Positions 40,501 through 50,027 of a stretch of 64,000 bases of DNA are shown in pieces. The position numbers were made by a program, and so were the translations under genes. The notes under the pieces were generated by a model. The model was not told the DNA's origin. It made no database searches and saw only the letters and a list, made by a program, of their open reading frames with translations. Each line of letters begins with the position of its first letter. Position 1 is the stretch's first letter. This DNA comes from Bolinopsis microptera (lineage: Eukaryota > Ctenophora > Tentaculata > Lobata > Bolinopsidae), in the NCBI RefSeq assembly GCF_026151205.1, contig NC_087076.1, positions 14,059,675 to 14,123,674 on the forward strand, written 5' to 3'.

Positions 40501-41210
40501 AACTTGTATTGTTCCAGTATGAGACTGTTGTGTTACTGCTAAGAACTTCTCAATAATGGTGTTAAATATTCCGCTCTTTTAAAAATTTAAACTGTCCCTT
40601 GTTTTCTTATCTAATCAAACAAATTCGAGTAGGGTGTCCTTATGCATTATCATTATATCCAGAATTAATCGCAATTTAAACTAATTTTGCTCCCACAATG
40701 ATATGACTGGAACGATAAAACTTTATCATAACATGTTCAACGAATTTTTGTCGAAAGGCATGAGTGGTTTCGATTTAACGAAATTATTTATTGTACGTAG
40801 AAATATTCTTTTAATTTTTTGTATGAAACTTGATCGGAAATTCGAATGGGGCCAATGAAGACTAAAGAGCCTATTAGTTTACAGTCACCATATGTTGCAC
40901 GTGACTTTGACCGTAATGTAATTAAACGGATTCACGGGTAGAAAAGGACCATCAAATTGGAACCGTAAATTAATTTGGTGATTTGTATTGGCGCCTTTGG
41001 CAACATATTGAAGCTCAAAATCGAATCAAATACATTTGTTTTGCTAGTAGTAGTACTAGTGGTTTTGAATTTGTTGACTGTTGAGACCGAGACAACGAAT
41101 AATTGTAGCCGAACATTAAAAGACTTTTAGAAAAAGTCGCCATTCGGTCTAACAGTGTCAGTAGTTATACTTATTAGTCATAATCAACAAATCGTAGTTA
41201 AACTATAATC
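37600..41210. other. Long intergenic stretch, no supported gene
   Basis: AT-rich. Four units of a GTACGTGACATTATGTTGA-type word lie at 38,451-38,565. A plus-strand frame at 39,048-39,275 has one hydrophobic helix (TVQLLFLCILGIFLDNIINY) but no other evidence. A GGA triplet run at 40,346-40,372 gives polyserine or polyglutamate frames. The last few hundred bases must hold the SLC6 promoter, but I see no clear TATA element. Confidence 0.4.
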
Positions 41211-44200
41211 ATGGGAAAGGTAAGTTCAATGTTCATTGAGTTTGACTAGACTTTATGAATTAAAGTATTCGTTTTTAATTTGAACAACCAAATTTCTAAA
41301 AAAAATTGAAACTTTATGAGTTAGTCAACTCCAAATGATTCCAATGTAATAGCGGATTATAACTGTAATTTTATCAGGACCCCGAAACAGCAGGAGGACC
41401 CGAAACCGCAGGAGGACCCCCAAAAGAGGCGGAGAACAGATTAAGATGGGGCAGTCACTTGGAGTTCCTACTGGCAGCTGTGGGAATGGCTGTGGGCACC
41501 GGTAATGTGTGGAGGTCAGTGGTTTTTATTATAATTTAGTCGGGTTACACCACCAGTTGTGGAAATATGGTAACCTAGCTGGTTTCTCTTTAAACTAGCA
41601 TGATGATAATAGTAAAATATAACAATCTCGATAATACAGCGTGTCAGTAAACTGATAGCGGTTGATAGCGGTTAACCTTTTAATCCCTAGGTTCCCCTAC
41701 CTGGCTCAGAAGAACGGAGGAGGAGCTTTCCTCATCCCGTATTGTATAATGCTAGCTGTTGAGGGAATACCACTGATGTTCATGGAGCTATCTCTGGGTC
41801 AGCGTCTTCAGCAGGGCTCTATCAAGACATGGAGTAAAATAAGACCTTATCTAAAAGTGAGTCGTTATTTACCACTCATTCAATAAGTGTATGTTTTTAT
41901 ATTAGTTTAGTAATGTAAGCTGCAACAGTAACACTTACTGACTTACACTTACAGTTACAGTACTTGTTTAGGCCAATTAATCATTAATGAGCAGTCTAAA
42001 ATCGATTTTACCAGCCGCAACCCATATTTTCAGGGTATCGGAATCGCGCAAGTAGTGGTATCATTCAGTATGACAGTGTACTATCCCATCGTCATGACGT
42101 GGTGCATGTACTACTTCTATCTCTCTTTCAGGTACGAAATGTTTCAGTAACTTTCGGATAAGTTCCAACTTTTCGGATGATTACTGAAAAATGCGATATA
42201 ATTCTGTTGGCAAAACAGTTACCGTAAATGTTACTCGCTTTTACGCCGGAAAAAGTTGTATACTTCTCAGAAATAATTTTAAAATATACTAATTATCACT
42301 AAAAATCCAACTGAATTGTTGTAATACCTGCAGTAACCCGCTCCCTTGGGTGAAAGAAGAGTGTGATGCAGCGAGAGCTGACTACAGCTGTTGTTTGAAT
42401 GACTCAGCTAAACACTTCTACTACGTTTCCGCCCTGCAAGTCACCAGCTCGATCAGCGATAACGGTGGTTTTGTTAACGGTGTGGTCATCTGTTGGGTCA
42501 TCAGCTGGGTTATGACTTATGCTTGTCTTTTCAAGGTTAGCCGCAAAGCTATTTTAATTGCAGCCGCAAGCTTCGGTGTTTAATCTTTACTGTTTTAAGG
42601 TTGATGGATCAGGTCTCTCAGATTATAATACTTTTCAATGTCAGAGGATCAGGCTGGAGCCAGGTGCGTTGGCGCCAAAGATAAGACGAAGTAACACTAA
42701 CTGTTATACAGTATTAAATTACCTTAATTTTATCTATAAACTAGATATTTGATTTTATTGTTCAATTTTAATACCGTTTTTATTTTCGATTTAAGCTAAA
42801 TCTCCAATTTCTAGGAATTAAATTTCTCTTATCGTCACAATGGATCCATTACATATTATGTAGCATAAAAACTCGATGGTTTTAGTTTTATCGTCAGGCA
42901 CCCGGTATTTATTATGTATATATTATTAGTATTACTTAAATGCTTAAATGGTTACCGCTAATACGGAACAATAATTCAATTTTAAATTCTCCCAATTTTA
43001 GGGTCCTGAATCGCTGGGAAAAGCTGCCTATTTCACTGCGACATTCCCTTACCTGGTCCTCTTCTGTCTTTTCTGTCGAGGTGTGTTCTGAAATGTGGTG
43101 ATCCAATTTGAAAGGCTTTTAAGTTTTGACCAACCCCCAGGGATTTCATATACGCCTCAAAATTAATTCTTATTCGCCAGACGAATTAACGTATTTCACA
43201 AACATAAAACGGATGAAATTTCCGACTCGACAATGCAATAGCAAACTTTATTTCAGGTGTCTCTCTAGAGGGAGCAGGAAGAGGAATCAAGGTTTTGTTC
43301 ACTCCGGACTTCTCCGTTCTTTACGATCCAAATGTGTGGATGGATGCAGCTGGACAGATTTTCTACAGGTAAGATTCGTCCTCTCATCTTTTGGTCATAC
43401 ATCCGGATCCCGACGGCACTTCGCGGCACTCTCGTGGCACTCTCGTGGCACTATGGCGGCACTGTCGGGGCACTATGGCGGCACTCCTGGCGGCATAGTG
43501 CCAACTTTCAATCATGTTCTTTCAAAATCACAAGACAATAATTATACCTTCATTATTATCTTTTTACAATAACCGCGGTGTTATAAAATCTTTTAAACAA
43601 AAACTTTCATTCATCATTAAAAATCTTAAACATTGATCATACAACTTTCAGTGTTGGGGTGGGATTTGGTGCTATGATATGTTTTGCGTCCTACAATCCG
43701 ATAAAAAACAACTGCTTGAACGATGCGGTGTTCATTAGCCTGGCGAACAGTTCGACTTCCATTTTCGCTGCAGTCGTCGTCTATTCCATCATGGGCTTTA
43801 GAGAGGTATATATTATAAATCTCATCCATTTTAATTAATTTGTTTTATCGGATTTCAGCTTGAGCGTTGGGTTTGGAGCTTTGATATGTTTTGCGTCCTA
43901 CAATCCGATAAAAAACGACTGTCGCAAAGATGCCATCTTCATTTCGTTGGTCAACTGTGGAACTTCAGTGTTTTCGGGAATTGTAGTTTATTCGATACTC
44001 GGTTTTAGAGAGGTAAACCTACGTGCTGAGAATGTGCTGAAATATGCTGAGAATTTGCTGAAACATGCTGAAAATGTGCTGAAAACATTGTATTTTATTC
44101 GATACTCGGTTTTAGAGGGGTAACCTACATGTAATATAAGTGTCGTAAACGAATAAAAACAAGCTGAGAATGTACTGAAAATGTGCTGAAAACATGCTGA

Positions 44201-46008
44201 ACACTCGACACATGTCATGTTTTCAACATTATTTGAAGACTGATGAAATCTTTCACCAATTTGATGATCATTGTACACTTTTTCTGTTAATTATACTCTA
44301 TAAGACAGTATTGAAAACTCAGCTGATCACGCTAGGTCAGTACAGGAATAAAGGTAGCTGATGTGGAGGGGGGACCAGGTCTGGCTTTTATCGCTTACAC
44401 AACAGCAGTAGCTGAGATGCCGCTACCTCAGCTCTGGGCAGCAGCTTTCTTCTTTATGATGGTTACTCTGGCATTGAACTCGGAGTTCGGGACTGTGGAG
44501 GCTTGTATTACTCCCCTGAGGGACTTTAAACTGTTTTCTAAGATCTCCAGAGAGGTATGCTTACGATTGTTAACTTATATTTATATTTCTATATTATCTG
44601 GCCTGGTAAGCATACGGATTTTATTCTTTAGTGCCATTATTTTCAACTTTGAACCCAGTAATCTCTTTTAAGGTTAAATTAACACGAATTCCATCGCTCT
44701 TTACAAAGGAATTTGTCTTTACAAGGCAACTACCTCTTCAAGTAACACCTCTTCAATAAGGATCCGAATATTTTTCAGTTAAGTTGACTGTTTTTAATCT
44801 ACCAAAATAAACAGCAGTATTCTCAGTTGCTGTGTTTGATCGTCTGTTGTGTAATGTTTTTGGTGGGATTGCCCATGTGTTGCCGCAACGGTCTGTACGT
44901 GTTCAACCTGTGGGACAACTACTCAGTCACCATTCCCTTGCTATGTGTTGGTATGTTGCATTGTTGTTGATCTGTTGCATTACCGTGCCAATAACACTGT
45001 TTTCTTTGGAGAGCAGCGGATGAAATTTAAAAGAATCAATTATAATACGTTTCAAATTTCGTCTGATATAAAACAGTCTAATTGGAATTTTTATCTTGAT
45101 TTTTATCGTTCACTGTTGAACCATGACCAGACACTTCAGGGATACTTTTCCTTATCAATACCTTAATCAACTCGTTAGTTAGGGACTTTGTCTTGCAGTT
45201 TTTACCCTTATTTATATTTTCAGGGGCTATGGAATGCATAGCGGTCATGTGGATATACGGCATGCCAAGGTTCCTGAAGGACATAGAATATATGACTGGT
45301 ACGGTACCCAACAAATACTGGCAGATCTGCTGGAAATGGGTCTCTCCAGCTCTTATCGTGAGTCAAGATCATTTTGCCAGATTATTTGGAAACTGGAATT
45401 GGCTTGAGGATCTGAAAATATGGTCGAGCTGGAAATGCATTGTTCGATAGTAAATTAAGGAATTAATTTAATGGTTTTGGTTTATTAATCAACCCTATAA
45501 CCTATTATATTAGATAAGTTCAAATCCACCAATAACACTAAGTCTTAATATCTAATTCACCTCAACTCAGATCGTTGTGCTGCTGTCGAGTATGATCAAG
45601 AAGATGATAGTCCCTGAAACATATGAATCCTTCGTGGGCTGTATAGATTCACCCATCAACGACAACATCCCAGGAACTAAGAACTGGAACAGACTCATTC
45701 CTTTCACTTGGTGGGCTCAGATCTTCGCAGCTCTGATGGTTATCGCCCCTGTAATGTGGATGCCGGTGTTCGTTATTTGGAAGTGGAAGGCAGATATAGT
45801 CCCCATACCTTATCTGCAGGGAATGATTGACGAGGGGATGGTTGTGAAGGATAAACCGTTCTGTTTCGGTAAAGAGGTTCGCAAGTTCAAGGAAAATATT
45901 GGACTGAAAAGTAGCAGACCTGCTGCGCAGAACGGGGAGGGTTATGTGGTTCAGAACATGACCGCAACCAATGGTATTAATCCTGATAATACAGGATCGA
46001 AAGTATGA
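41211..46008 (+). CDS. SLC6 neutral amino-acid transporter (B0AT-like), 12 exons plus an alternative exon 8
   Basis: Sodium-coupled plasma-membrane transporter. Exons, all with GT-AG borders and matching phases: 41,211-41,219; 41,378-41,514; 41,691-41,856; 42,034-42,131; 42,334-42,535; 43,002-43,080; 43,257-43,368; 43,652-43,805 or 43,859-44,012; 44,336-44,554; 44,815-44,950; 45,224-45,357; 45,571-46,008. The product is 627 residues, normal for the family. TM1 reads [12 protein letters not shown] across the exon 2/3 join, then [10 protein letters not shown]; later [35 protein letters not shown] and [14 protein letters not shown]1 has Gly where monoamine transporters have Asp, so amines are unlikely substrates. 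[13 protein letters not shown] and [11 protein letters not shown] resemble the SLC6A15-A20 (B0AT) group. Extracellular loops 2 and 4 are short. The start ATG gives only MGK before the first intron. Confidence 0.93.
43405..43495 (+). repeat. GGCACT minisatellite in SLC6 intron 7
   Basis: Six to seven imperfect units of GGCACTATGGC / GGCACTCTCGT in the intron upstream of exon 8a. GC-rich in an AT-rich gene. Confidence 0.65.
43652..43805 (+). CDS. SLC6 alternative exon 8a (TM6b-TM7)
   Basis: 154 bases after a CTTTCAG acceptor, ending GAG before GTATAT. With the AG left by exon 7 it reads S-V-G-V-G-F-G-A-M, then [15 protein letters not shown] and [11 protein letters not shown]. It enters in phase 2 and leaves in phase 0, exactly like exon 8b. 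It encodes the unwound part of TM6, which forms the substrate and sodium pocket in LeuT-fold transporters. It has Gly at the position matching LeuT Ser256. Confidence 0.9.
43859..44012 (+). CDS. SLC6 alternative exon 8b (TM6b-TM7)
   Basis: Also 154 bases, after GGATTTCAG and before GTAAAC. It reads S-L-S-V-G-F-G-A-L, then [15 protein letters not shown] and [11 protein letters not shown]: 37 of 52 residues identical to exon 8a. It has Ser where exon 8a has Gly in the TM6 pocket. Only 53 bases separate it from exon 8a, and using both exons would shift the frame (308 bases), so the two must be alternatives. Confidence 0.9.
44023..44125 (+). repeat. GCTGAAAATGT tandem words and a remnant copy of the exon 8b end
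   Basis: Just after exon 8b, about six imperfect GCTGAAAATGT-type words are followed at 44,088-44,127 by a near-exact copy of the last 30 bases of exon 8b and its splice site (TTATTCGATACTCGGTTTTA, then GAGGGGTAAC). More of the same words follow at 44,163-44,200. This looks like the trace of another duplication event at the same exon. Confidence 0.7.
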
Positions 46009-46264
46009 TCACATGACCGGGTAGTCTTTGCTAGCACTGGACTTACTTCGAAGCCATTTACCTACACAACCTTTACCATCGTGGCTCCTATATATATAAA
46101 TTATAAAGAACGGATTGAATCTAGAAGACTTTAAATAAGATGATACGATTTCTGGATACAGAACAATACTTTAGGAAAAAATGTAAAATAAGAATGAAAA
46201 CTAGATTAAATCTAGTACTAGTAGATTTACTGTGTATATCTGATATTGTATTTAAACAAAACCC

Positions 46265-46443
46265 AAAATTGGGTAGAGTGGACCGTCGGCAGTGTCTCCT
46301 TTCCCAAACAAAAGGAAATAAATCAAATTAAATTAATGTTACCGTACCCAAACGTTTGGGTACGGTAATGGTCGTTAAAATTGATATATTTCCTTTCGTT
46401 TGGAAAAAGGAGACACTGGCGACGGTCCACTCTACCCAATTTT
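46265..46443. repeat. 179-bp near-perfect palindrome just downstream of the SLC6 stop
   Basis: Left arm AAAATTGGGTAGAGTGGACC..., right arm its complement ...GGTCCACTCTACCCAATTTT, with the centre at CCCAAACGTTTGGG. A few mismatches lie between arms. It starts 257 bases after the stop codon. An AATAAA (46,317-46,322) falls inside the left arm, so the 3' UTR might end in or contain the hairpin. Probably a folded-back MITE. Confidence 0.85.
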
Positions 46444-48433
46444 AGTTTTGGCTAAAAAATAGTATGTACTATAAAAGTAGTAGCATACGTGATAGGAATA
46501 AACTTTAGGAATGTATGTCGATAGTTTTGTTCAATAGCTGATATTATATATCATACTTCTATTTTTTATACGAATCAATTAATAGAACAATTATTTGATA
46601 AAACGATTTTTTTTTAACGGCGCAATTAAACAATATCAATGTTCCTACCAATCAGTATCATGCAGCAGCTACTGCTTAACAATTACCTGAGGACCCCAGG
46701 CTATTATGTTCATTAACATATAATAAAATAAAGATTTGGCGAAATGACAGGCTGAGCGCGGCCCAGTAACTTAACAATAAACATATGGCTAATAAATTAT
46801 ATCAGAGTGTGATTGATGTAATAAACAAATAAACTACCTTAAGTTATCGGACATTATTAATTATTTTACCGGACATCGCGTGAACGGACACAATTTTGAA
46901 CGGACTTTGAAATAAACGTACGAACATTCAAAACCATTACAAATCTAAAATTTGTTCATTTTTATGAGCGTCTTTCCAATTTTAGTAAATAATTTTTCAT
47001 TAGATCTTTTATACAGTTAAGTAAGCAACTTGTTTTCAATTGATCTAATTGCATAATTCAGTCCGATAATGAAATTGAAAATTGAGATTGACCAAAATTA
47101 AAAAGTATTCAATATTCATATCCTGGACAATTATAACTATAAGTTCGTAGTGGAAATGGAATAATTTTGGAATAACATTTTCAACGGACTTTTTGGACGG
47201 ACCGTAAACAAACAGACTTTACTGGGCCGCGCTCAGCCTGTCATTCCGCCGAATCTCTATTCGGCGGAATGACAGGCTAAATATGTTTATGAACATAATA
47301 GCATGAGGTCCCCAGGTAAAAACAGAATTTATTAGGACTGACATTAGAATGAATGCTATTATAGGGACTCCAGCGTCCAATTAATGTCTGTTCAACTTCA
47401 AATTAAGTTCGTTAAGTTAGTTAAGTAGTAACAATTCGTGAATTCGCAGGTCGTGAATCCACTATGATGTTCTTTAAGTTAAAGGCTGTTACTAATTAGC
47501 TCGCCCAAAAATTTCACGTGACTTTGGTTTTTATGGTTTTGCAGCCGTACAAAACGGTTTTACATTAACCATAATCCCAACCCTAACCATAACCCCGAAG
47601 CTAACCATAACCTTTACCACAACCCTAACCCTAACCCGAGCCCTAAACAATCGAATTCATGTTTTACTTTTACTAGCCTTTTAGTGACCAAAACGGTTTT
47701 TTCCCATAACTCTCCGTGGAACTGTGGAAGCATTTTTACCCTACGTCATGGGGGGGGGGGGGGGGGGGGTGATTCGGAATCAGCGTCCAAAAATACACCG
47801 ATTCAGATCAATTTCACACCGAAATGGCCTTTTCACAAGAATTTTCGATTTAGTAGGAGCGGTTCTTAAATGATACCAAGTGTTGGCTCCTTAAATCACA
47901 TCCGGATTTTGGAATGCTCTTATTATCTGAAAACAAATGGTAACGTCACACTACTGATCATGAGCATTTTAGAGCACACTACACGATGGCTGGCACGTTA
48001 CCTCATACAAGGTATATGGAGAAGTGTAGGAGTTTTTGTCCAAACTTACGTAGTACCACCGGTGAAATAAAACCCTGAGTAGTGAAAACTGTACCGGTGG
48101 CGGTACAGGCCGGTTTGATATTTTTCTTTTTTGATGAATTATTGCTCCTTTCAGGAGAGACGAGAGGAAGCAAAGACCTTTACAATCGAGCCTTTTTTTG
48201 AAGAGCCGCTTATTTTAGTCAAAATTGTTGTCGCATTTGAACGGGGCAGTAAATGTTGTATTTCCTTTCCTTAATAGTAATACTCAACCATCTAATATTT
48301 GTATCTGCAACATTTTACCATTTACTTATGGGGCTGATCATCAGCAAGTCACTAACTCAGTTTTAGATTTTTAATTATCTCCCAAGAAAGCTTGACTCAC
48401 ATAAATCTCCTGGCAGTTGATAACATTACCAAA
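46444..48433. other. Repeat-rich intergenic stretch
   Basis: Contains an inverted copy of the 36.44-kb repeat (46,690-46,770), a diverged GGACATT repeat (46,850-46,930), a second copy with an extra CATTCCGCCGAATCTCTATT hairpin (47,220-47,320) and the telomere-word repeat listed next. No gene seen. Confidence 0.5.
47490..47860 (+). repeat. Dispersed repeat with telomere-like CCCTAA words (copy 2)
   Basis: Closely matches 35,235-35,610 but has a longer poly-G run (about 20 G's at 47,750-47,769) before GTGATTCGGAATCAGCGTCC. The CCCTAA-like words are at 47,567-47,646. Confidence 0.75.
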
Positions 48434-50027
48434 ATGAACTACTCCGAACTAAGTAGACGGCGGATGACAGACGCACAAGTTCAGTTAACCTTTAAGGGAA
48501 TGTTCCGTGACCTCTCAATCATTCAGATTCCACTTTCCATCATAGTTGTAGTGCAAAACAGTGTCATCATCATGGACTACTACAAAGACAGGGCTAAGTT
48601 TGTGCCTAGTTTATTTATGGGAATAGCACTTTCAGACATCCTAAAAGCTCAAGGACAGCTAGTACTAGCGGTGATCAGTATCCTGGCGTACAGTGAACTT
48701 GTTGATATTATGGTCCTCTACAAGAGCTTGCTTTACTACATGGTAACTGCTCTGCCTGGCATCAACTGCTCCAAGCTCTTCAACATGGTCCTCACAATCA
48801 CGCTAACCTACAATATAGTGGACCCTTTCCGTGTCATCAACACTGCTCTTCTGAAGAAGGTTGTTCTGTTCCTTTGCTTGCTCATCACTATTCTCCATGT
48901 CTCTGATAGCATCATAGGAATATATGCACTAAGTAGTAATCTACTTGATCACTACGTAGGGACTACAGTGTTTCTATACTTGATACTTGTTTTTGATATT
49001 CCTGGAGTTGTAGCTGTGGTTGCAATCTTGTGCCAATATGACGAAAATACCGGCCATCTTTACTGCTCGGAATACTGGAGGTCTAATAAGACTACAATAT
49101 ACGTAGGTGCAGTCTTATTTCTCTACTTCGTGGCTATACCCCTGACTGTATTTATCTGCATGATAATACAGGTGAAGTATCTGAGGAGATCTGTTGGAGA
49201 CAGCGAGACACCCACCCTCTCCAACACAGCACGTCATGTCTCCATCACTGTCTTCCTGGTCTCTACTCTCTTCTTCCTCTGCAATGTTACCTTCTTCTTC
49301 TTCATGACGGCCTGGTACATCTCCAACAGGCACATTGATTATGAAGAACATACGGATAGCTATTTCGTAGATTTGGGCATTCAGGTAGGGTGCTAATTGT
49401 TAAACTAATCGTACATTTATTTTTACCCAAATGATACCTAAAAGATCATTATCTAACTTTTATAACATATAATTTGTTCATTATTGATTATAGAGCTATT
49501 CCAACTAAGTCATCTACTTAGGACGTCCGGCAAATAGGGATGGGGTGGTTTTGGAAATGGAATTTCGAACAAATCTGGACAGGGGGAGGGAGGTGGTTTC
49601 TGAAAATCCGGACGTCCGGAAATTTGGGCAGAAGTAACAAAAAAGTCCCATTAATTTCAACTCTTTGACACTAATTACTCGATGGATTTGAGTTGGTTTT
49701 ATTTGTATTCTTAAAAGTAGCTGGAAATCCGGACGTCCGGGGAGGGGGTGGTTTTGAAAATTCGGACACACCCGGACAGGGTGAGGGGGTGGTCTGAAAA
49801 TATGCGATTTTGGCGCACGTCGTAAGTAGATGGCCCCTAACAAATATACCACTGCTCAGGTAGGATTTGCTGAGTTCACCCTGCCCCTGATTTACGCAGC
49901 TGTGTATCCTGTTATAATCATATCCCGGAAGGAAGAACTGAGGAAGAGGTACTTGGGGTACTTGAGACGAGCTAGGTGTTGTGGGTCCTCTCTTAACCAG
50001 CAACAAGCTGGTGCTGCCGAGGAGTGA
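48434..50027 (+). CDS. Divergent rhodopsin-like (class A) receptor, two exons
   Basis: Exon 1 is 48,434-49,384 and exon 2 is 49,860-50,027, joined in phase 0 (CAG/GTAGGG and CTCAG/GTAGGATTT): 372 residues. The first ATG in the frame is at 48,434, giving an N-terminus with an N-Y-S glycosylation site. TM1 has VVVQNSVIIM, TM2 has IALSDILKA (conserved Asp), TM3 ends TLTYNIVDPFRVIN in place of the usual DRY...PF, the loop before TM6 is basic and serine-rich, TM6 is ITVFLVSTLFFLCNVTFFFF, and TM7 is LPLIYAAVYPVIIISRKEEL with the NPxxY Asn replaced. An extra hydrophobic segment, FLYLILVFDIPGVVAVVAIL, lies between TM4 and TM5. The ligand is unknown. AATAAA is at 50,483. Confidence 0.75.
49510..49845 (-). 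repeat. GTCCG-rich dispersed repeat filling the receptor intron
   Basis: Inverted copy of 35,640-36,070 (GGACGTCCGGCAAATAGGG, CTGGAAATCCGGACGTCCGG and related words). It makes up most of the 475-base intron and stops 15 bases before the acceptor. Confidence 0.65.

Follow-up and report, generated by a model that had tools for sequence, protein, structure and literature searches.

Can a single transporter gene encode two proteins of different substrate choice by exchanging one exon? The question is raised by a gene of the ctenophore Bolinopsis microptera whose eighth exon is present in two tandem copies, hereafter 8a and 8b. It lies in a window of 64,000 nucleotides, by which we mean the whole stretch of DNA analysed, positions 14059675-14123674 of contig C5 in a genome of 264.65 Mb and 232 contigs. 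The reading towards which we lean with some confidence, on the strength of the sequence, is that the two copies would be spliced in a mutually exclusive manner, and that the resulting isoforms would differ in substrate choice, with a possible RNA clamp at the 8b acceptor. Outside the exon pair, the gene model comprises:

41211 to 46008, plus strand: SLC6-family (PF00209) transporter gene, 12 exons, 623 aa, stop included
41211-41219, 41378-41514, 41691-41856 and 42034-42131, plus strand: exons 1-4
42334-42535, 43002-43080 and 43257-43368, plus strand: exons 5-7; exon 7 breaks off within the codon of Ser268 (..QIFY-AG), with donor CAG/GTAAGA
44336-44554, 44827-44950, 45224-45357 and 45571-46008, plus strand: exons 9-12; exon 9 has the acceptor common to both forms and carries TM8, with Thr372 at the SIT1 Asn410 position

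The gene is complete, and with either 8a or 8b alone the spliced frame runs for 623 aa without an internal stop. Exon 10 was begun at 44827 rather than 44815, as the four residues in between are absent from the Mnemiopsis leidyi protein P0001. This protein is the best match of the gene product among the matches listed (81% identity over 96%), none of which was an entry near 100% identity to the gene. PF00209 matches at the locus fall within C5:14101357-14105037. The best PDB matches are B0AT1 (chain 9kxx_A, E 1.9e-126) and SIT1 (E 5.9e-126), both of which outrank the glycine transporters (GlyTs). By these comparisons the protein is a member of the SLC6, or neurotransmitter:sodium symporter, family. 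A search of 41000-46100 against Rfam returned 0 matches. Residues of the Na1 and chloride sites were found at Asn46, Gln264, Ser268, Asn300 and Ser304 (46 and 268 numbered by count), with Phe79 replacing the TM2 Tyr.

This Phe79, encoded by exon 3, occupies the position of SIT1 Tyr47, the chloride-binding tyrosine of TM2. Phe is shared with Mnemiopsis P0001, and Tyr is found in 6/6 other ctenophore relatives covering the site (P0002-P0007); chloride dependence may differ in the orthologue group formed by the window gene and P0001. Several further features of the locus were recorded. A repeat at 41376-41424, across the start of exon 2, encodes a duplicated N-terminal PETAGGP motif and is lacking in P0001. 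Just downstream of the gene, two inverted-repeat, MITE-like elements can be recognised by eye at about 46265-46450 and 46740-47250, as can a telomere-like CCCTAA-rich run near 47560-47640. Beyond these, an open frame of 346 aa (48356-49396) has the look of a polytopic membrane protein, by eye a receptor-like one; it gave no Pfam match at E 0.001.

The exon pair itself is arranged as follows, with TM borders placed on the protein where we take them to lie:

43652 to 43805, plus strand: exon 8a, a TM6b-TM7 cassette with Gly270 (S-V-G-V-G-F-G); donor GAG/GTATAT, without G at +5
43806 to 43858, plus strand: intron between 8a and 8b, 53 nt
43859 to 44012, plus strand: exon 8b, a TM6b-TM7 cassette with Ser270 (S-L-S-V-G-F-G); donor GAG/GTAAAC, without G at +5
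44087 to 44123, plus strand: incomplete third copy covering the 3' end of exon 8b and its donor; identity 95%; located in the intron that follows 8b

Both copies measure 154 nt, have AG/GT borders and agree at 110/154 nucleotides. They are entered after two bases of a Ser codon (AG/T or AG/C) and left in phase 0. The same residue is encoded by 36 of the 51 full codons, or 37/52 (71%) if the split Ser codon is included. Homology extends over the whole length, as a 163-nt direct repeat of 73% identity, and against a profile of the region built from 109 homologues (those of 540-780 aa out of the best 120 listed matches) 8a scores 91.8 bits and 8b 105.2 bits. Because the copies are homologous throughout and score highly, their likeness cannot be ascribed to chance. 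The first-pass annotation had given the exon coordinates, lengths, equal phases and protein identity just listed, and all were reproduced; splicing from exon 7 recovered the two joins that it proposed, Y-S-V-G-V-G-F-G and Y-S-L-S-V-G-F-G, and its four junction coordinates agree with our gene model. Tandem duplication and frame-enforced exclusivity, which underlie its exon-swap reading, stand as well. Its GlyT1/GlyT2 analogy holds too, and its interpretation is right in direction, but a better anchor is given by B0AT1 and SIT1, the closest solved relatives; the label 'glycine transporter' was dropped.

The partial copy at 44087-44123 is possibly a decoy donor or a relic. It adjoins an 11/21-nt TGCTGAAA-type repeat (44023-44085 and 44156-44201), and the intron preceding exon 8a contains a minisatellite (43414-43495) that is built of CGGCACTCTCG-type units and can form a hairpin at its end.

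A tandem pair of this kind could also arise as an assembly artefact, two haplotypes or paralogues having been joined in one contig. The assembly did undergo gap closing and haplotig removal, as stated in the part of PMC10232365 consulted, which also reports Iso-Seq and RNA-seq reads of B. microptera as a source of the published annotation. However, identity between the copies is just 71%, and a single gene holds them in register with 53 nt between. A genome search with the 461-nt stretch that they occupy brought up no further close match: the best elsewhere was 78% over 151 nt on contig C11, plus the adjacent partial copy. We consider an artefact very improbable.

That the copies are alternatives, and are not used together, is suggested first by the reading frame. 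Inclusion of both causes a frameshift with a first stop at residue 369, and omission of both leads to a first stop at residue 273. The intervening intron is also exceptional: at 53 nt it is shorter than each of the remaining 11, whose lengths range from 158 to 466 nt. A G at position +5 of a donor carries functional weight in splicing. It is present in 10/10 of the other donors of this gene and in 0/2 of the exon 8 donors, which have A there; by counting, the chance of such a split is 1 in 66. Because of the frame, the short intron and the two donors lacking the +5 G, one copy of exon 8 should be used at a time.

The locus thereby resembles described clusters of mutually exclusive exons, in which homologous exons, matched in length and phase, lie in tandem and use of both copies, or of neither, destroys the protein. 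Any branch point in the 53-nt intron would be less than 50 nt from the donor, which is the steric limit applied to human clusters. In the text of PMC5740500 consulted, 57 human clusters (9%) have a donor-to-branch-point distance below 50 bp, and 377 (60%) include exons whose length is not a multiple of three. Exon skipping in Mnemiopsis, according to the part of PMC6142364 seen, mostly concerns exons with lengths that are such a multiple, unlike 8a and 8b.

Exon 8a has no stop and no indel, its AG/GT borders are intact, and the ion-site residues Gln264, Ser268 (by count), Asn300 and Ser304 are kept in 8a and 8b alike. Among the columns conserved at 90% or more, 8a retains 17/20, 8b 18/20, and the exon of a single-copy paralogue on contig C11 17/20. 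Against the family profile, which includes ctenophore proteins, 8a outscores both SIT1 (87.8 bits) and B0AT1 (84.8 bits). These properties argue against a view in which 8b alone is at work, 8a being a relic or a rarely spliced copy, so that the gene would effectively make one Ser-type transporter. We regard that view as unlikely, yet it draws on several observations. Identity to Mnemiopsis P0001 is 94% for 8b (48/51) and for the flanks, against 69% for 8a (35/51). Thirteen of the 15 differing residues of 8a do occur among the 109 homologues, a point in its favour; the other two, Val269 and Met315, occur in 0/109. When changes are polarised by the C11 exon, which leaves 11 sites unpolarised, those proper to 8a number 5 synonymous and 12 nonsynonymous, and neutrality is not rejected (p 0.33). 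The same polarisation gives 8 synonymous and 7 nonsynonymous changes for 8b, and 8 and 6 for the C11 exon. Pairwise comparison of 8a and 8b gives dN 0.22 and dS 1.21 (dN/dS about 0.18), which may mostly reflect constraint on 8b. Rare use of 8a is possible.

Homologues bear on this point as well as on the age of the pair. Searching the protein collection with the 8a region returned a single candidate, the 8b-type Mnemiopsis orthologue P0001. This orthologue is listed in its 8b form only, which also favours the view of 8a as a relic, in a collection whose clustering at 90% identity can hide isoforms; P0001 represents 3 sequences on one contig, and these could be isoforms. A fragment-length profile search revealed exon 9 pieces of apparent orthologues on other contigs (P0191 and P0208), and exon 8 was not found in the 12 proteins inspected of the 120 listed. 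One candidate 8a orthologue, P0012, was rejected: it has Gly at the site, yet is nearer to 8b (37 of 51 residues) than to 8a (34). An exon 8 tree of 12 rows and 51 columns gave no resolved branching. Because 8b resembles its Mnemiopsis counterpart while 8a is far from both, the duplication is probably older than the Bolinopsis-Mnemiopsis split, this identity contrast being its sole basis.

If both copies are functional, what does the exchange alter? At residue 270 the copies differ, with Gly in 8a and Ser in 8b. For its placement, the alignment was oriented by the LeuT/SERT numbering. In PDB alignments to the snail protein P0149, matched to the window protein through the motif F/Y-S-L-G/S, GlyT1 reads SLGCAWG at this site and the GlyT2-like chain 9km2, named only 'Transporter', reads SLSAAWG. 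The first-pass annotation had assigned Gly to GlyT1 and Ser to GlyT2 at the exchanged position, which these alignments confirm for GlyT1 and for the GlyT2-like chain, and had tied acceptance of sarcosine to it. The latter finds backing in the portion of the review PMC8602798 consulted, where sarcosine acceptance by GlyT1 is credited to the Gly, and where the GlyT2 residue is printed as S479. An excerpt of PMC6166138 lists the GlyT2 residues as Phe478, Ser479, Leu480 and Ser481, from which the GlyT2 site is Ser481 by alignment.

The closer relatives provide a more pertinent comparison. As described in the sections of PMC11217458 consulted, Gly253 of SIT1 packs against the pipecolate ring, and this Gly is shared by all other SLC6 proline transporters; in almost every other amino-acid SLC6 the position is taken by a Ser that hydrogen-bonds the primary amine; and the SIT1 substitution G253S increases the relative transport of leucine and alanine. 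The Ser280 side chain of B0AT1 binds the substrate amine, according to the part of PMC10491607 seen. Given that B0AT1 and SIT1 are closest, a contrast of secondary amines (proline and N-methyl compounds) with primary neutral amino acids is a better prediction than one drawn from glycine transporters. Size selection should be another matter. SIT1 is kept to small substrates by a network of Tyr21, Ser258 and Asn410 (PMC11217458, same sections), whose counterparts in the window protein are Met40, Ala275 (numbered by count) and Thr372; as this network is missing, both isoforms should accept larger side chains. Of the two features that mark imino-acid SLC6 transporters, Gly at the TM6 site is found in 8a only, and the steric block (Asn410 in SIT1, Phe in PROT) is absent, Thr372 standing in its place. 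We therefore predict by analogy that the 8b form would handle a broad range of primary neutral amino acids, and that the 8a form would be shifted towards proline and N-methyl amino acids, without a strong size limit. The gene would then probably be one that makes two transporters by exon choice.

It may be asked whether the exons, while mutually exclusive, serve the same amino acids, their differences tuning kinetics, ion coupling, trafficking or stability instead. Besides residue 270, 14 further residues distinguish 8a from 8b, and the 15 differences lie mostly in the loop and TM7. Position 270 itself varies among homologues, with 59 Gly, 49 Ser and 1 Ala (n=109). Nor is 8a more like SIT1 overall: each exon agrees with it at 28/51 positions, and a general SIT1-likeness of 8a was dropped from consideration. 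Against this stands the published effect on substrate choice of mutating the site that corresponds to residue 270 in GlyT2 and SIT1; we consider unchanged substrates quite unlikely.

Across the whole genome, queries with the exon 8 sequences gave 14 and 17 places. A scan with an exon profile covered 20 stretches (L037-L056) and the window stretch, 21 in all; the 20 include the PF00209 places except C7:522471-522611 and C53:19947-20039. As 82 of the 114 PF00209 candidates were scored, the resulting list of SLC6 genes is a lower bound. The profile matched 12/21 stretches, and two full-length copies occurred only in the window gene. An intron interrupts the segment in 8 of the 11 others; of the remaining three, L037 holds one full copy, L041 a nearly full one and L052 a part. 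At the site, L039 and L042 are Ser-type genes, L054 has Thr, and L037, L043, L044, L045 with its near-twin L046, and L051 are Gly-type. The exons of the B. microptera protein P0005 were located on C11, with exon 8 at 100%; since that locus has one exon 8, P0005, described as 'isoform X2', was discarded as a second gene with mutually exclusive exons.

The paralogue L037 (G000:C11:14112001-14121000, minus strand) shows a peculiarity of its own. The intron before exon 8 of this gene, which encodes P0005, contains a 49-bp minisatellite, whose unit repeats the 3' splice site and the first ~17 nt of exon 8. There are 107 matches to the pattern, of which 1 is the real exon start; the array continues into the exon and provides ~100 decoy acceptors. 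The Gly/Ser site is Gly in this exon, which begins S-I-G-V-G, and Mnemiopsis P0006 and P0004 read S-L-S-V-G; the array may have replaced the start of exon 8 in L037.

How might one copy be chosen over the other in the window gene? A candidate signal is found in the short intron, in the form of a segment complementary to both exons:

43843 to 43854, plus strand: intronic 12-nt arm TTTTATCGGATT, starting 16 nt upstream of exon 8b and ending 4 nt short of the intron end
43695 to 43706, plus strand: complementary arm AATCCGATAAAA in exon 8a
43902 to 43913, plus strand: complementary arm AATCCGATAAAA in exon 8b, with a predicted hairpin over the 8b acceptor
43675 to 43709 (8a) and 43882 to 43916 (8b), plus strand: 35-nt run identical in both exons, containing the exon arms

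The TTTTATCGGATT arm is perfectly complementary over 12 nt to 8a and to 8b, an arrangement of one site and two copies as in docking/selector systems. Its matches are the longest of 144 comparisons of intron ends with exons in the gene, the next reaching 10. Conserved codons are identical in 11/11 cases within the 35-nt run and in 11/25 elsewhere (Fisher p 0.002; run permutation p 0.001); gene conversion or an RNA constraint would each explain this. Under nine RNAfold settings the mean pairing of the intronic arm is 0.76-0.99 with the 8b arm and 0.00-0.14 with the 8a arm, the 8b acceptor tract being 8-20% unpaired. The controls for chance point both ways. A 12-nt match was attained by 2/3000 shuffled introns. 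Synonymous recoding produced it in 161/20000 cases for 8a and 154/20000 for 8b, and with both exons recoded independently 0/20000 reached 12 nt, under a null that ignores exon homology. The predicted 8b hairpin has a z of -1.85, with 8/200 shuffles as stable. Inverted repeats of 12 nt are not uncommon in the window either, where 31 remain after merging if the arms may lie up to 300 nt apart. Because the pairings with 8a and with 8b both cover the 8b acceptor, a clamp alone cannot pick between two states. The simplest reading, suggestive but less likely than not, is an RNA clamp that would disfavour 8b until opened.

Taken together, these elements outline a mechanism. Each transcript would take 8a or 8b, exclusivity resting on the short intron, whose donor and branch point would be too close, and on the reading frame. 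Selection between the copies would take place at the 8b acceptor. The intron arm would cover this acceptor by pairing with either exon: with the clamp closed 8a would be used, and with the clamp opened 8b. In the 8b form, Ser270 would hydrogen-bond the primary amine in the manner of B0AT1 Ser280, giving a general neutral amino-acid transporter; in the 8a form, Gly270 would leave space beside the amine, like SIT1 Gly253, and proline and N-methylated amino acids would be favoured. A bolder version, which we would call improbable, has an exon pair that is older than the Bolinopsis-Mnemiopsis split and responds to salinity, to feeding or to the type of cell, a clamp over the 8b acceptor switching the gene between general neutral amino-acid transport (8b) and osmolyte-type transport of proline and N-methyl amino acids (8a).

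Mutually exclusive exons are a known kind of arrangement; the Gly/Ser site of TM6 is an unusual target for them. The role of this site was previously derived from paralogous genes and mutants, and two proteins identical outside one 51-residue cassette would offer a natural test of its hold on substrate choice. The pair also hints that, in a lineage that branched off early among animals, splicing may serve alongside gene duplication to broaden the uptake of amino acids, since Gly-type and Ser-type SLC6 genes also occur separately in this genome. Among the matches listed we recognised no mutually exclusive SLC6 exon pair in the literature, which does not by itself establish absence from print. 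The term 'SLC6' is absent from the main text of PMC5740500, and in the part of PMC8527503 consulted 'mutually exclusive exons' concerns gene splitting in annotation.

Known systems resemble the window gene in different respects. The Mnemiopsis myosin gene Mhc2, for which an excerpt of PMC3912159 predicts mutually exclusive exons, likewise has a tandem pair exchanging a functional-site segment in a lobate ctenophore, but encodes a motor rather than a transporter. Solute carriers with such exons include SLC25A3 and SLC39A14, in the text of PMC5740500 seen; those of SLC25A3 lie within the folded domain, as here, although both genes belong to other folds and families. As to regulation, in Dscam, 14-3-3 zeta and Mhc one docking site pairs with either selector copy, one at a time, from an intron to the left or right of the exon cluster, and competing structures are proposed to originate by duplication of one hairpin arm along with the exon (PMC6071210, in the part consulted), an origin that the present architecture recalls. 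The window gene differs in that its single site occupies the intron separating the two exons, covers an acceptor and has coding partners. With respect to the substrate site, GlyT1 (SLC6A9) and GlyT2 (SLC6A5) differ by Gly and Ser at the same position, linked to sarcosine acceptance, as the exon pair does, but they are two genes, and the window protein is nearer to B0AT1 and SIT1. These in turn oppose Gly253 to Ser280 at the same TM6 position, and proline-type to primary amino acids, much as 8a and 8b are predicted to do. They are, however, two separate human genes and not two exons of one, and SIT1 has the Tyr21, Ser258 and Asn410 that the window protein lacks. Should the bolder version given above be true, what separates B0AT1 from SIT1 would occur naturally within one gene, in an animal lineage that branched off early.
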